NCBI RefSeq assembly: GCF_001890765.1
Contig: NZ_KV878783.1
Location: 1,944,695 to 2,008,694 of the forward strand
Length of the DNA stretch: 64,000 nucleotides
Direction of reading: 5' to 3'
From: Spirulina major PCC 6313
GTDB lineage: Bacteria; Cyanobacteriota; Cyanobacteriia; Cyanobacteriales; Spirulinaceae
The notes under the pieces were generated by a model. That model ran no database searches. It saw only the letters and a list, made by a program, of their open reading frames with translations, and was not told where the DNA came from. This document shows positions 5,922-56,125 of this stretch, in pieces (the stretch's first letter is position 1; each line of letters begins with the position of its first letter). A program made the position numbers and the translations under genes.

Positions 5922-6000
5922 GGGTTGAGGGTGCGATCGCGTTTTCGTCCTTACTGTATCGAACTTTTCCCATGGATGCCCTGGAGTGCGAGCGTCCCGC

Positions 6001-6048
6001 TCGCTACTTTAACCCTAGATTAGCTCGCTACTTTAACCCTAGATTAGC
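6001..6048. repeat. Two perfect tandem copies of a 24-bp unit
   Basis: The unit TCGCTACTTTAACCCTAGATTAGC (6001-6024) is repeated exactly at 6025-6048, and a third copy begins with TCGCT. The array lies between two minus-strand genes, just downstream of the dnaJ stop. The unit contains CTTTAACCCTAGATTAG, rich in stop-like triplets. No function is evident. Confidence 0.9.
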
Positions 6049-6075
6049 TCGCTGTCGTGCTGTGATGATCCTGCC

Positions 6076-13487: not shown

Positions 13488-15035
13488 TTAGGGCAAAAAT
13501 GCGCCGCCTCTGCGATCGTCCCCGGCCCCGGCAAACTCGCCACTGGGGAGGCGTTCCACCCCATGCACCCCCCCAAAAAACATATTTTGGGCTTGCCAAT
13601 GCAGTTGATGATCGGTGTAGCGATCGCTCAACTCCAGCCCTTCGCCTAAGCCCGGTTCGAGGTTCAATGTGCCGCTTTCCCAATGCAAACGCGGGCGAGC
13701 AATGGCGGTCCTGAGATCATCCCCAAAGTCCACCAAATTCGTCACGATCTGCGTGAGTACCGTGCGAATCCGGTTCGACCCCCCGGAACCAAAAACCTGG
13801 GTGGGCTGACCATCGGTGAGGATCATCGTTGGGGCCATCATCGAAGACATGCGGCGATCGCTTGCCCAAGCATGGAACCCCTGGGGGTTGAGATCCGCTT
13901 CGCCGAGCATATTGTTGACCATAATCCCCGTCCCCGGAATCATGTAGCCGGAGCCTTCGCCGTTGGAGGTAGTGGCGCTGGCAGCGTTGCCCCATTCATC
14001 CATGACGCTGATGTGGGTGGTGCTGCCCCAGCGGTTTAACCCGGCGGCGAGGGCGGCTTGATAGGGGGCGAAGTGATCCGCGCCCAGGAACTCAGCGGCG
14101 ATGGTGGGGTCATGGATGCGATCGTCGTAGCCATCGGTGCGGGCTTGGTTGGTGAGTTGCATGGCGCGAATCAGGGCGCGGAGATGGGTTTCGCTGCCCC
14201 AGGGCAGGGTGTCTAAGCCTGCGGTGGCCAGGAGTTGGAGGGTAAAGGCCATTAACGCGCCGCCGGAACTGGGGGGCGGGTTGGTGAGAAGGGTTTGACC
14301 GCGATAGTTAATGCGTAAGGGTTGCCGTTTGATCACTTGGTAATGGGCGAGGTCGGCATGGGTGAGATAACCGCCGTGGGTTTGACAGTCGGCCACCAGT
14401 TGATCGGCGATCGCCCCCCGATAAAACAGATCAATCCCCTCACTCACGATCGCTGCTAAGGTGTGGGCAAACTCTCGATGCACAAGCTGTTCACCGTAGC
14501 GCACGAGGCGACCCGTAGGCGCATAGATGCGGCGGGATTCGGCCCGTTCGAGTAAAATCGGCGCGAGGACGGTATTGATGCAAAATTCTTGAAAATCACT
14601 GAGGGGTACACCATCACGGGCGTAGGCGATCGCCGGTTCAGCCACCACCCCAAAGGGCAACCGCCCCAACTCCTGTTGCACCGTCCACACCCCCGCTAAA
14701 TTTCCCGGTGTGGCCATCGCCCCTAGGCCCACATGAAACGACTGCACCGCATCGCCAAAATTCACATCAACGGGGTAAAAATCCAAGTCCGCCACGGGTC
14801 GTTTTTCGCGGGGGGTTTGGGTGAAAAAGTCGTAGAGGATGGGGGGGCGATCGCCACAATGAGCCAACAAAAACCCGCCCCCCGCCGCTGAAGTGAGGGT
14901 GGGTTCTGTGACAAAGGAGGCGAGCATGGCCGCTGCGATCGCATCAAATGCATTCCCCCCCGCCTCAAACACCGTCATCGCCGCCGCTGCGGTCTGTGGA
15001 TGTCCGGCTGCTACTCCGCCCCGTGTTTTTCCCAT
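13488..15035 (-). CDS. ggt: Gamma-glutamyltransferase
   Basis: A 515-residue member of the Ntn-hydrolase gamma-glutamyltransferase family. It starts GVAAGHPQTAAAAMTVFEAG with the family motif AGGNAFDAIAAAM. The autocleavage and catalytic Thr lies in GSTTHISVMDEWGNAASAT, and the oxyanion region near GSGYMIPGTGIMVNN. The enzyme breaks gamma-glutamyl bonds of glutathione and related peptides. No clear signal peptide is seen, so it may be cytoplasmic, unlike the secreted E. coli enzyme. The C-terminus is short, ending soon after LHWQAQNMFFGGVHG. Confidence 0.9.
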   Translation of the reverse strand: MGKTRGGVAAGHPQTAAAAMTVFEAGGNAFDAIAAAMLASFVTEPTLTSAAGGGFLLAHCGDRPPILYDFFTQTPREKRPVADLDFYPVDVNFGDAVQSFHVGLGAMATPGNLAGVWTVQQELGRLPFGVVAEPAIAYARDGVPLSDFQEFCINTVLAPILLERAESRRIYAPTGRLVRYGEQLVHREFAHTLAAIVSEGIDLFYRGAIADQLVADCQTHGGYLTHADLAHYQVIKRQPLRINYRGQTLLTNPPPSSGGALMAFTLQLLATAGLDTLPWGSETHLRALIRAMQLTNQARTDGYDDRIHDPTIAAEFLGADHFAPYQAALAAGLNRWGSTTHISVMDEWGNAASATTSNGEGSGYMIPGTGIMVNNMLGEADLNPQGFHAWASDRRMSSMMAPTMILTDGQPTQVFGSGGSNRIRTVLTQIVTNLVDFGDDLRTAIARPRLHWESGTLNLEPGLGEGLELSDRYTDHQLHWQAQNMFFGGVHGVERLPSGEFAGAGDDRRGGAFLP

Positions 15036-15191
15036 ATCACTCTACAGATTGATCCTGTCAACGAAACCGCTTTTGATTGTGCCATAGGTCGCCTCCGCTA
15101 AAATACAGGCAGGATTGAGAAACCTCTCACCCCAACCCTCTCGCGCAGGCTTCTGCCTATACACCAATCGATCGCACAAGTGAACACCCTA

Positions 15192-15571
15192 GCTTGATCC
15201 CCCCTAACCCCCCTTAGTAAGGGGGGAAACTCGAAAAAAAGTCCCCTTAGTAAGGGGGGAAACTCAAAAAAAAGTCCCCCTTAGTAAGGGGGGAAACTCG
15301 AAAAAAAGTCCCCTTAGTAAGGGGGAAACTCGAAAAAAAGTCCCCTTAGTAAGGGGGGGAACTCAAAAAAAAGTCCCCTTAGTAAGGGGGAAACTCAAAA
15401 AAAAGTCCCCTTAGTAAGGGGGGAAACTCGAAAAAAAGTCCCCTTAGTAAGGGGGGGAACTCAAAAAAAAGTCCCCTTAGTAAGGGGGGAAACTCGAAAA
15501 AAAGTCCCCTTAGTAAGGGGGGAACTCAAAAAAAAGTCCCCCTTAGTAAGGGGGATTTAGGGGGATCAAGC
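15192..15571. repeat. Array of 11 palindromes CCCCTTAGTAAGGGG bounded by inverted repeats
   Basis: Eleven copies of the palindrome CCCCTTAGTAAGGGG (one-base centre) are spaced at about 32-33 bp by a linker of the form GGAAACTCGAAAAAAAGTC. G/A variation in the linker and one- or two-base changes in G-run length distinguish copies. The block is bounded by GCTTGATCCCCCCTAA on the left and TTAGGGGGATCAAGC on the right, an inverted pair known as ends of a common small cyanobacterial repeat. The core of that repeat has apparently been tandemly amplified here. The rest of the 15036-15671 gap shows nothing else. Confidence 0.9.
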
Positions 15572-15671
15572 CCAGGCTAAGTCAACAAGTGAAGATTATG
15601 TATCAGCAGAAGCTCCCACGGGAGAAGGGTTGGGTATGAGGGCATTCTGCCCCGTCGTATCATCTTTTCCT

Positions 15672-16991
15672 ATGTCTACCCCCGATCCCGAACTCCGCGA
15701 AAAAATTCGCCGTCAATTCGACCATTGCCCCTATCCCAGCACGCCTATCGATCACACCTACGCGAATAATCCGGATTTTCTGTATATTCATAACCTGATC
15801 ACGGCGTTTTATCGGCGCGATCGCACCGTGATCGACCCTTCCGGCATGGTGATTTTAGATGCGGGATGCGGTTCCGGCATCAAAGCCCTCGGCCTCGCCC
15901 AAGCCAATCCGAGCAGCCAGGTGATCGGTGTTGATCTGTCCCCGGAATCGGTGGAATTTGCCAAAAAGCGAATTCAGTATCATGGTATTGAAAACGTTGA
16001 ATTTCAAGTGTTAGATCTTGAAGATTTACCCAGTTTGGGCCTTGAATTTGACTACATCAATTGTGATGAAGTGCTGTATCTTCTCGATGATCCGGCGGCG
16101 GGTTTGGCTGCCATGAGTCGGGTGTTAAAACCGACGGGCATTCTACGGTTTAACCTCCACAGCTTATATGGCCGTGGCATGATGTTGCGTGCCCAGGAAG
16201 TATTTCGGATTATGGGCTTGATGGAAAGTAATCCAGAAGATACTGAGGTCGATATTGTGCGAGACACTTTTGATGCTTTGCACGATAACACAATGCTGAA
16301 GCAACTGACGAATTGGCCCAAGGCAGGCGAGTCGAAAGAGTCAATTTTGGCGAATTATTTGCTGATGGGTGATCGCGGTTTTTCCATTCCGCAGGTTTTT
16401 GACTTTCTTCGCCAAACAAACCTTGAATTTATCAGCATGGTGGAATGGCGAAATTGGAATCTTCTTGATCTTTTCAACACTCCCGATGATCTCCCTGTGT
16501 TTTGGCAACTCGCCCTTCCCGAAGCTAGCCTCGAAGACCAACTCACTCTGATTGAACTTTTGCACCCCAGCAACCGCCTCATTGATCTCTGGTGCTGTCA
16601 TCCTCAACCCCCCAGCACGATTCAACCTCTCGACACCTGGAGCCAATCCGATTGGCTTCGGTCTACGATCCATCTACACCCCCAACTCCAAATCCCCGCC
16701 GTCCGGACTGAGCTAGAGCGGTGTGTGGCCCAACTCCAGCCTTTTAATCTGGGGGCATTTTTACGCCATGTCGGCACGGCGGCGGTGATTGATGCTACGT
16801 TGGCCGCCGGTTTACTCATTCCCCTACTCCAGCAGCCCCAACCCTTTCAAGCCCTTACCGAACACTGGCAAACCCTCCATCCCCTCAACCCAATCACCCA
16901 AGCGCCCACAACACCAGACGAGGCGCGATCGACCCTGTACAGCGCGGCACAAGGTTTAGAGGCGGGGGGCTACCTCCTGATCACTCCTTGA
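15672..16991 (+). CDS. Class I SAM-dependent methyltransferase with C-terminal extension
   Basis: A 439-residue protein. The methyltransferase domain (about 45-210) has motif I VILDAGCGSGIKALGLA, the acidic residue of motif II in VIGVDLSPESVEFAKKR, and motif IV INCDEVLYLLDDPAAGL. About 230 residues follow with alternating helix and strand and no motif I can name. The substrate is unknown. ATG 15672 gives MSTPDPELREKIRRQFDHCP, a natural N-terminus; an upstream in-frame start lies in the repeat-flanked leader. It precedes a pilin and a glycosyltransferase on the same strand, so a role in surface-structure modification is possible but unproven. Confidence 0.8.
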   Translation: MSTPDPELREKIRRQFDHCPYPSTPIDHTYANNPDFLYIHNLITAFYRRDRTVIDPSGMVILDAGCGSGIKALGLAQANPSSQVIGVDLSPESVEFAKKRIQYHGIENVEFQVLDLEDLPSLGLEFDYINCDEVLYLLDDPAAGLAAMSRVLKPTGILRFNLHSLYGRGMMLRAQEVFRIMGLMESNPEDTEVDIVRDTFDALHDNTMLKQLTNWPKAGESKESILANYLLMGDRGFSIPQVFDFLRQTNLEFISMVEWRNWNLLDLFNTPDDLPVFWQLALPEASLEDQLTLIELLHPSNRLIDLWCCHPQPPSTIQPLDTWSQSDWLRSTIHLHPQLQIPAVRTELERCVAQLQPFNLGAFLRHVGTAAVIDATLAAGLLIPLLQQPQPFQALTEHWQTLHPLNPITQAPTTPDEARSTLYSAAQGLEAGGYLLITP

Positions 16992-54310: not shown

Positions 54311-54337
54311 TGTACGGCGGCATCTTGATTTTGATGG

Positions 54338-54423
54338 GGTGGGAGCATCCTGCTCCCTATTTTGTCTGAGTCCTAGCGGGGGTGGGAGCATCCTGCTCCC
54401 TATTTTGTCTGAGTCCTAGCGGG
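54338..54423. repeat. Two tandem copies of a 43-bp unit with internal palindrome
   Basis: The unit beginning GGTGGGAGCATCCTGCTCCC and ending GAGTCCTAGCGGG occupies 54338-54380 and again 54381-54423 without change. GGGAGCATCCTGCTCCC inside it is a hairpin with a three-base loop. Downstream GGGCAAGATGCCCGC looks like a further related hairpin. The array sits beside the IS5 remnant. Confidence 0.9.
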
Positions 54424-55198: not shown

Positions 55199-56125
55199 GG
55201 GCCGCAGGGTTAACCGAATCGTGTAGTCAAAGGCTTTCGGCTGACCTTGATCCAACGTTGGATTGAATTGCCAGGTTTCAATAATTTTGGCCGCTACGGC
55301 TCCCGCCTGTGACGGTGTTAGCGATCCCGCTAGCACCGTTGTTTTGTCGGGCAAAACTTCGGCGCGTCCTGTGGCATCGATAATCACCACCACATCCAAA
55401 ATAAGCGGCTCGGTCAAGGTTAACCCCAACGGCGCGAGATATTGCGCGATCGCTAATTTTTTTTCCGCCGTACGCACCGTGGCAAGCTGATCCGGGACAT
55501 CCCGCTGCACCGTTTCCCCGTAGGCATTGGTAAAACTGGGTAGCGTCGGATTGGCTGCGATCGCCATAAATTCCGTCGCGTCAGCAGTCCCCCCATTGCC
55601 CGGACTCACTCCCTCATTAGTCCCCGGTGGCGGCGGTAACACGGGGGGCGAGGGTCGGGGGGATGGGGATGGATTCGGGGATGGGGATGGATTTGGGGAT
55701 GGGGATGGGGATGGGGATGGGGATGGGGATGGACTGGGTGAGGGACTGGGTGAGGGATTCGGGGATGGGGATGGACTGGGTGAGGGACTGGGTGAGGGAC
55801 TGGGTGAGGGATTTGGGGATGGGGATGGACTGGGTGAGGGACTGGGTGAGGGACTGGGTGAGGGATTTGGGGATGGATTGGGTGCAGTGGCGGGGGCTTG
55901 GGTTGCAGGTTCTACGGGAATGGGGGCCAGTTGGGGCGCAGCGGGAACGGGGCTATCGTAGAGGGTGACGGGTATCCAGTCCGGGGTAAGCAGACCCGTG
56001 GGCATGGCGATTTGGACGGCTGTGGACGGCAGAAACAACAGTAGCAACAGATGGCCACCCCCAGAGAGGACAATCAAAAACCACCAAAGGGCGGGGGGAT
56101 CATGGCGGGGACTGCGATCGCTCAT
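55190..56125 (-). CDS. TonB-like energy transducer with Pro-Ser tract
   Basis: About 311 residues. One N-terminal membrane helix (WWFLIVLSGGGHLLLLLFLP) precedes a long spacer of PSP and PNP repeats (about 80-165), then a C-terminal domain (about 215-310) with AEVLPDKTTVLAGSL and AAKIIETWQFNPTLDQGQPK, which resembles TonB C-terminal domains. TonB couples inner-membrane proton flow to outer-membrane receptors, and the Pro-rich spacer spans the periplasm. No ExbB/ExbD or receptor is next to it. Start ATG 56125 gives MSDRSPRHD. The spacer is encoded by a DNA minisatellite. Confidence 0.78.
   Translation of the reverse strand: MSDRSPRHDPPALWWFLIVLSGGGHLLLLLFLPSTAVQIAMPTGLLTPDWIPVTLYDSPVPAAPQLAPIPVEPATQAPATAPNPSPNPSPSPSPSPSPSPSPSPNPSPSPSPSPSPSPSPSPNPSPSPSPSPSPSPSPSPSPSPNPSPSPNPSPSPRPSPPVLPPPPGTNEGVSPGNGGTADATEFMAIAANPTLPSFTNAYGETVQRDVPDQLATVRTAEKKLAIAQYLAPLGLTLTEPLILDVVVIIDATGRAEVLPDKTTVLAGSLTPSQAGAVAAKIIETWQFNPTLDQGQPKAFDYTIRLTLRPLA
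55657..55882. repeat. Minisatellite encoding the Pro-Ser spacer
   Basis: On the plus strand short units GGGGATGGGGATGGA, GGGGATTTGG and GGGTGAGGGACT are tandemly repeated over about 225 bp. All units keep lengths in multiples of 6 bp, so the reading frame of the TonB-like gene is preserved as PSP/PNP repeats. Slippage here would change spacer length without a frameshift. Confidence 0.85.

Follow-up and report, generated by a model that had tools for sequence, protein, structure and literature searches.

How did a small palindrome, found elsewhere in cyanobacteria as one or two hairpins, come to stand eleven times in tandem between two genes of Spirulina major PCC 6313? The locus lies in a window of 64,000 nucleotides, which is the whole stretch of DNA analysed (contig NZ_KV878783.1, forward-strand positions 1,944,695 to 2,008,694); coordinates without a contig name are counted from its first letter. 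The structure of the array, its relatives, the element that encloses it and the ways in which it may have grown are described below.

The hairpin array and its relatives

Parsing of the locus identified 11 palindromes of the form CCCC(C)TTAGTAAGGGG(G) and ten near-identical spacers at 15208..15554 on the + strand, with a distance of 32-34 bp between neighbouring centres. TRF on 15210-15554 gave a period of 33 bp (10.5 copies, 93% matches) and a period of 65 bp (5.2 copies, 95% matches); the 65-bp dimer scored slightly above the 33-bp monomer (619 vs 602), because the G-type and A-type spacers partly alternate. A preliminary description, made from the letters of the sequence, had proposed an eleven-fold amplification at a period of 32-33 bp, and both analyses bear this out. 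The spacers are 15-16 bp long and belong to three types, AAACTCGAAAAAAAGT (n = 5), AACTCAAAAAAAAGT (n = 3), and AAACTCAAAAAAAAGT (n = 2), with a mean identity of 0.936. All of the 11 hairpins contain the loop string TTAGTAA; mirror hairpins are absent from the window array. A CRISPR was considered and rejected, since it would need unlike spacers between constant repeats. The Rfam search returned 13 matches at E values up to 1, none reaching the gathering score, and a known RNA family was rejected on this basis. The three-hairpin pattern gave 14 forward and 5 reverse matches in the Spirulina major genome, whereas the reversed-pattern control gave no match in any of the 386 genomes searched; therefore, the array is not a product of chance. 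No published description of such an array was found by full-text sequence-string search and title/abstract word search of the openly licensed literature, which is weak evidence of absence.

On either side of the hairpin core stands one half of an outer inverted repeat, GCTTGATCCCCC (15192-15206) and GGGGGATCAAGC (15557-15571), mismatched at 2 of 15 positions. Extended to the array, the left part of this repeat is GCTTGATCCCCCCTAA (15192..15207, + strand) and its right part is ATTTAGGGGGATCAAGC (15555..15571, + strand). The single pair of outer inverted repeats reported earlier thus exists, but it is the innermost of three nested pairs. By-eye comparison showed that the last hairpin and the right outer repeat together are laid out as C5-loop-G5-loop-G5, like an intrastrand triplex motif (PMC4666352, excerpt). 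Folding predicts one hairpin per unit, as had been anticipated for RNA, and does so for single-stranded DNA as well. The A7-A8 tracts are present as described, but their supposed helical phasing is not: a period of ~33 bp corresponds to 3.1 turns at 10.5 bp per turn, so the A-tracts drift nearly 50 degrees per unit and run out of phase. DNA bending by A-tracts was rejected as a shared property of the arrays, both because the period is not made of whole turns and because A-tracts are absent from the spacers of three of the four sister arrays.

These sister arrays were identified in the same genome by a DNA search with the region and its follow-up. Among these results and the listed part of 110 forward and 110 reverse matches in the genome, there are at least four further intergenic arrays: L182 (11 hairpins), L183 (6), L184 (9), and L168 (15). 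The hairpins of the four sister arrays are free of overlapping open frames of at least 100 aa. Both of the GATCCCCC/GGGGGATC ends are found in all five arrays of the genome. Spacer identity averages 0.946 within arrays and 0.666 between them, taking the better of two orientations. The closest spacer pairs are L182/L168 (0.872) and window/L184 (0.769, in reverse complement), so the expansions in these two pairs may not be fully independent.

Near 1561200 and 4887300-4890400, there are arrays with longer units, in which the outer repeat has been partly copied along. At G000:C2:1561188-1561505 (L036, L179), a related hairpin element stands in five tandem copies of ~72 bp that take in a portion of the outer repeat; the loop is CCC in some copies and the reverse complement GGG in others, with unchanged flanks, which may be a case of in-place loop inversion. 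At G000:C2:4886600-4891300 (L169), four separate clusters of the array's hairpin family lie within 4.7 kb, some with units of ~81 and ~103 bp; this region is an apparent hotspot.

Across the phylum, the three-hairpin narrow-spacing pattern matched nine of 386 genomes. By hand count, all nine are among the 105 genomes of the window's order, and none is among the remaining 281. The same pattern identified 56 stretches among 84,980 named genomes, 48 with cyanobacterial titles and 8 others. A looser parser, applied to these stretches and to the arrays of Spirulina major itself, gave 64 arrays: 5 own, 50 other cyanobacterial, and 9 other. ATCCCCC and GGGGGAT ends occur together in 5/5, 26/50, and 0/9 arrays of these groups, respectively; only one end is present in 0, 11, and 1 arrays, and neither end in 0, 13, and 8. 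The 50 other cyanobacterial arrays mostly have 3-5 units, with a maximum of 11. The array-finding pattern admits only three-base loops and spacings of ~25-33 bp, so the uniform period seen elsewhere is partly imposed. In genomes G095, G121, G357, and G368, the outer half-repeat forms part of the repeated unit. Tandem hairpin arrays outside the cyanobacteria were observed in an Armatimonadota MAG (L111, L116), in Bacterium BMS3Bbin05 (L155), and in a Nitrospinota MAG (L149), all without GATCCCCC-type ends on both sides. The non-cyanobacterial arrays may be convergent or unrelated to the element. The claim that a one-copy element is common in cyanobacteria agrees with these searches: one- and two-hairpin forms are common, and the two-hairpin pattern occurs in 19 of 39 relatives. 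The window array is therefore a local expansion, as the preliminary description had read it.

The enclosing MITE and its insertion site

The hairpin core sits in a 463-bp MITE at 15150-15612, the two arms of which end in CTTCTGCCTATACACC and TTATGTATCAGCAGAAG. Arm 1 spans 15150..15193 (+ strand), with the terminal inverted repeat CTTCTGCCTATACACC at 15150-15165; arm 2 spans 15572..15612 (+ strand), with the terminal inverted repeat TTATGTATCAGCAGAAG at 15596-15612. No open frame of 60 aa or more was found inside 15150-15612, and the 463 bp are filled by the arms and the array. The presumed target-site duplications, CTCGCGCAGG (15140..15149, + strand) on the left and CTCCCACGGG (15613..15622, + strand) on the right, are decayed and identical at 7/10 positions, as against 9-10/10 in younger copies. 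The MITE insertion site is the outermost palindromic repeat, with its left part CCTCTCACCCCAACCCTCTC at 15123..15142 and its right part GAGAAGGGTTGGGTATGAGGG at 15622..15642, both on the + strand. Alignment by eye showed that the flanks CCCTC..CCC/GGG..GAGGG likewise surround other MITE copies, and that the MITE has commonly inserted into a second palindromic repeat, CCCTCACCCC..CCCTCTCCC / GGGAGAGGG..GGGTGAGGG, in the window copy as elsewhere. Other genomic copies have an intact end, CTACTGCTTATACA(C/T)AA, and arms of equal length, while the ends of the window copy have diverged.

The copies differ mainly in the number of hairpins. The one-hairpin copy L167 measures 104 bp, the two-hairpin copies L020 and L021 163-164 bp, the three-hairpin copy L014 194 bp, L019 with two tandem cores 245 bp, and the 15-hairpin copy L168 573 bp. 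Thus, copies with both arms hold 1, 2, 3, 11 or 15 hairpins, a pattern of fixed ends and variable tandem modules. Among the sister arrays, L168 is flanked by MITE arms on both sides, L182 and L183 on one side each, and L184 on neither. The scores of the single arms of L182 and L183 were reached in 0 of 5000 shuffles. Twelve elements with the MITE end were tested for target-site duplications, including L163 and L164, which have the same ends and another core. Eight of the twelve, among them the insertion sequence of genome G392, have duplications of 9-10 bp that differ at one position at most; the duplications are weaker in the window (7/10) and in L019 and L164 (6/9), and none was seen in L167.

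A second MITE of ~165-175 bp with the same ends carries another core, which contains GTGAGCCAGAGGCTCAC; its copies lie at G000:C2:1693100-1693300, 1708070-1708240, 2216620-2216790, 3332940-3333120, and 4187710-4187880. The window also holds other repeats. Two perfect 43-bp copies containing GGGAGCATCCTGCTCCC are found at 54336-54423, not spanned by any open frame of 100 aa, and a string similar to GGGAGCATCCTGCTCCC occurs near the MITE of L166. G-rich tandem repeats of 6, 12, 42, and 54 bp at 55659-55884 overlap a 347-aa minus-strand frame with no Pfam match. A 24-bp unit in 2.3 perfect copies lies between two frames at 5999-6053.

The MITE end was searched for among relatives, and matches were found in 4 of 23 genomes (Spirulina major included). 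In G392, a 1188-bp element is delimited by two perfect ends in opposite orientation and bordered by a perfect 10-bp duplication. The element has broken open frames. When its pieces were searched separately, three matched NF033590, the IS4_3 transposase model, one above the cut-off (162.3 bits vs 160) and two below, and one piece matched DDE_Tnp_1. These sequence matches support the IS4 family as the probable source of the mobiliser. The window element is assigned, by its shared ends and duplications, to MITEs of this family without a transposase gene of their own. In the Spirulina major genome, seven IS4_3 matches exceed the cut-off, and none has a MITE end within 1.5 kb. The seven resident IS4 copies, which carry other ends, are thus improbable mobilisers, and the presence of the mobiliser in this genome today is not supported.

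The insert is absent from both congeners, which hold both flanking genes. One is a gamma-glutamyltranspeptidase gene on the minus strand (13488..15035; PF01019, E 1.6e-102); the other, divergent from it and downstream of the insert, is a methyltransferase gene on the + strand (15672..16991; Methyltransf_31, E 4.7e-27), whose start codon was set by comparison with the congeners. The congener matches end at query base 637 (window 15036) and restart at 1267 (window 15666). The two start codons are 102 and 105 bp apart in the congeners vs 636 bp in the window. A TAAAAT box at 15099..15104 (+ strand), aligned by eye with TAGAAT in both congeners, is a possible -10 element of the methyltransferase gene, and the insert lies between this box and the start codon at 15672. 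If the box is indeed a -10 element, the array would lie within the 5' leader of the methyltransferase gene. A sigma-70 scan found no sigma-70-type promoter at 15030-15700.

Growth of the array and rival explanations

We suggest, with a probability of about 0.7, that the palindromic two-hairpin core served as a ready-made tandem seed, and that the array is a minisatellite that lengthened where it stands, within a non-autonomous transposable element. An IS4-family transposase would have brought in a short copy, whose palindromic core contained a pair of near-identical mirror hairpins with one spacer between them. Such a pair amounts to a direct repeat, so one hairpin could realign on the next and a 'hairpin + spacer' unit be duplicated. 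The realignment might result from stalling of the replication fork at a folded hairpin, or from unequal exchange; the latter is an established mechanism, as is slippage at hairpins. From three units on at the least, blocks of several units may be duplicated as well, which would make each array homogeneous and unlike its sisters. Such expansion in place would recur repeatedly, locus by locus.

Growth in place is favoured by the finding that short forms with 1-3 hairpins and long forms with 11 and 15 hairpins share one MITE family. The position of the mirror hairpins also points this way: in 12 of the 13 arrays that hold one, it is terminal (6.25 expected at random, P 0.0005), as would follow if one half of the palindrome expands and the other half stays behind at the end of the array. 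Loop flipping by in-place inversion had been considered for these arrays, 13 of the 64, which contain a loop together with its reverse complement; it was rejected on the same terminal position, which is expected when the ancestral palindrome contained two mirror hairpins. In a few cases, e.g., L133, a mirror hairpin is internal. In L168, a five-unit block appears to have been duplicated, as six units repeat at lag five (P 0.0066 vs shuffled unit order); L184 gave a weaker signal (P 0.07). The exact-match test found no multi-unit block repeat in the window, L182 or L183. The window has neither a mirror hairpin nor a repeated block, so both signatures of growth come from the sister arrays. One of the five arrays is without any MITE arm, which argues against expansion within the MITE.

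The same comparisons bear on whether ready-made arrays transpose, with the long form as the mobile unit and the short copies as its deletions. The related spacers of two array pairs, and the degenerate third hairpins of some short copies (e.g., L014/L039), would fit this scheme. However, loops and spacers are homogeneous within arrays and different between them, as in L168, which has 15/15 TTCACAAA on the strand on which L182 has TTAAAAA units, and the best-preserved ends and duplications belong to copies with two and three hairpins; we thus regard the scheme as quite improbable. Still less probable is a REP/REPIN-like process, in which a RAYT-type Y1 (HUH) transposase copies and stacks single-stranded hairpins. 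RAYTs are longer than IS200 transposases, and the single Y1_Tnp match in the genome (110.6 bits), ~1.1 Mb from the array, is in an open frame of 141 residues, an ordinary IS200 size; longer, weaker Y1_Tnp matches occur in relatives, not in Spirulina major. The MITE arms and target duplications indicate an IS4 mobiliser, even though the two mirror hairpins recall a REPIN, and REPs and REPINs can occur in tandem clusters (PMC3116915, excerpt). An assembly artefact is scarcely credible: the 347-bp array lies inside a single 4.99-Mb contig of a two-contig, 5.05-Mb assembly, its units have scattered private differences, and the four further arrays differ in sequence.

The array might instead have been selected. 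A stack of minus-strand terminators would act as an insulator and keep antisense transcription that leaves the methyltransferase gene from reaching the gamma-glutamyltranspeptidase gene or its promoter, and the plus strand would form a structured leader. The + strand RNA of 15108-15671 folds to -260 kcal/mol vs -181 in 100 shuffles (z -10.7). On the minus strand, ten hairpins at 15243..15555 are each followed by T7-T8, as in intrinsic terminators, and the scan gave 14 rows vs 2.8 (sd 2.2) in shuffles. These T-tracts are the A7-A8 tracts of the + strand, and 10 of the 11 hairpins are covered. The insert is also placed between the conserved TA(A/G)AAT box and the start codon. On the other hand, two bases (AC) separate the stem from the T-tract, the promoter scan of 15030-15700 was negative for sigma-70 types, and only 13 of the 64 arrays have a mean of at least 5 T in the 8 bases after the hairpin (on either strand). 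Termination is hence not a trait that the arrays have in common; just two reach a mean of at least 6, with the window array highest. Selection for insulation therefore appears unlikely. Returning to growth in place, the array is probably a near-neutral by-product with possible side effects on transcription, which might include structured RNA before the methyltransferase gene and terminator-like units opposing minus-strand transcription. A further, speculative idea, which we hold to be rather unlikely, is that expansion is built in: every inserted copy would be a seed that lengthens stepwise into a tunable stack, here of ten one-way candidate terminators between divergent genes. If this is true, the copy number would set the strength of insulation, in a manner heritable yet quickly adjustable. 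To our knowledge, the cyanobacteria are a phylum without Rho factor.

Comparison with known systems and significance

Small dispersed repeats and the Nezha MITE are short palindromic mobile repeats of cyanobacteria. The ends of BOX, an element of Streptococcus pneumoniae, differ from those of the cyanobacterial element. BOX has the structure boxA-(boxB)n-boxC and is longer at some loci and in some strains than in others; the mechanisms proposed for it are slipped-strand mispairing, unequal crossover, and circular excision (PMC3049150, excerpt). Both are small elements whose two ends are fixed and whose terminal repeats resemble those of an insertion sequence, a resident one for BOX, with variable tandem hairpin modules in between. 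However, BOX belongs to another phylum, and boxB is one module family common to its loci, whereas the spacer and loop are locus-specific here (PMC3049150, excerpt). Variation from strain to strain was shown for BOX (same excerpt), while the Spirulina array is known from one strain.

BrickBuilt of Porphyromonas gingivalis is likewise intergenic, and its MITE, which has a leader and a tail, contains a minisatellite of 1 to 22.8 units; the unit is 23 bp without spacers, as against a palindrome plus spacer of 31-33 bp and an IS4-like mobiliser here (PMC4596501, excerpt). The word 'hairpin' is absent from the BrickBuilt paper (PMC4596501). REPINs and BIMEs are similar in having inverted hairpin pairs, at times in tandem clusters; those clusters are mobilised by RAYTs, and the REPIN is repeated with its flanks (PMC3116915, excerpt). 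In the present case, single hairpins amplify inside one pair of ends, and the genome has no Y1 match of RAYT size. The C-G-G layout of the last hairpin plus GGGGG resembles the GC-rich intrastrand triplex motifs, which occur in large numbers in Microcystis, Anabaena, and Nostoc and are linked to instability in E. coli (PMC4666352, excerpt). The motifs of that work, as excerpted, are single or paired, while an amplified hairpin array is found here. By analogy, the anatomy of the Spirulina element, with fixed ends, a variable hairpin stack, and a putatively IS-driven mobility, is that of BOX and BrickBuilt.

A single element family in a single genome presents states with 1, 2, 3, 11, and 15 hairpins, and from this series one can reconstruct how a bacterial minisatellite arises. 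Dispersed palindromes, MITEs, and minisatellites, which are usually treated apart, are joined in one system. If the number of units varies between isolates, the array would provide a new marker for typing in cyanobacteria, where it may also be a regulator whose effect depends on length.
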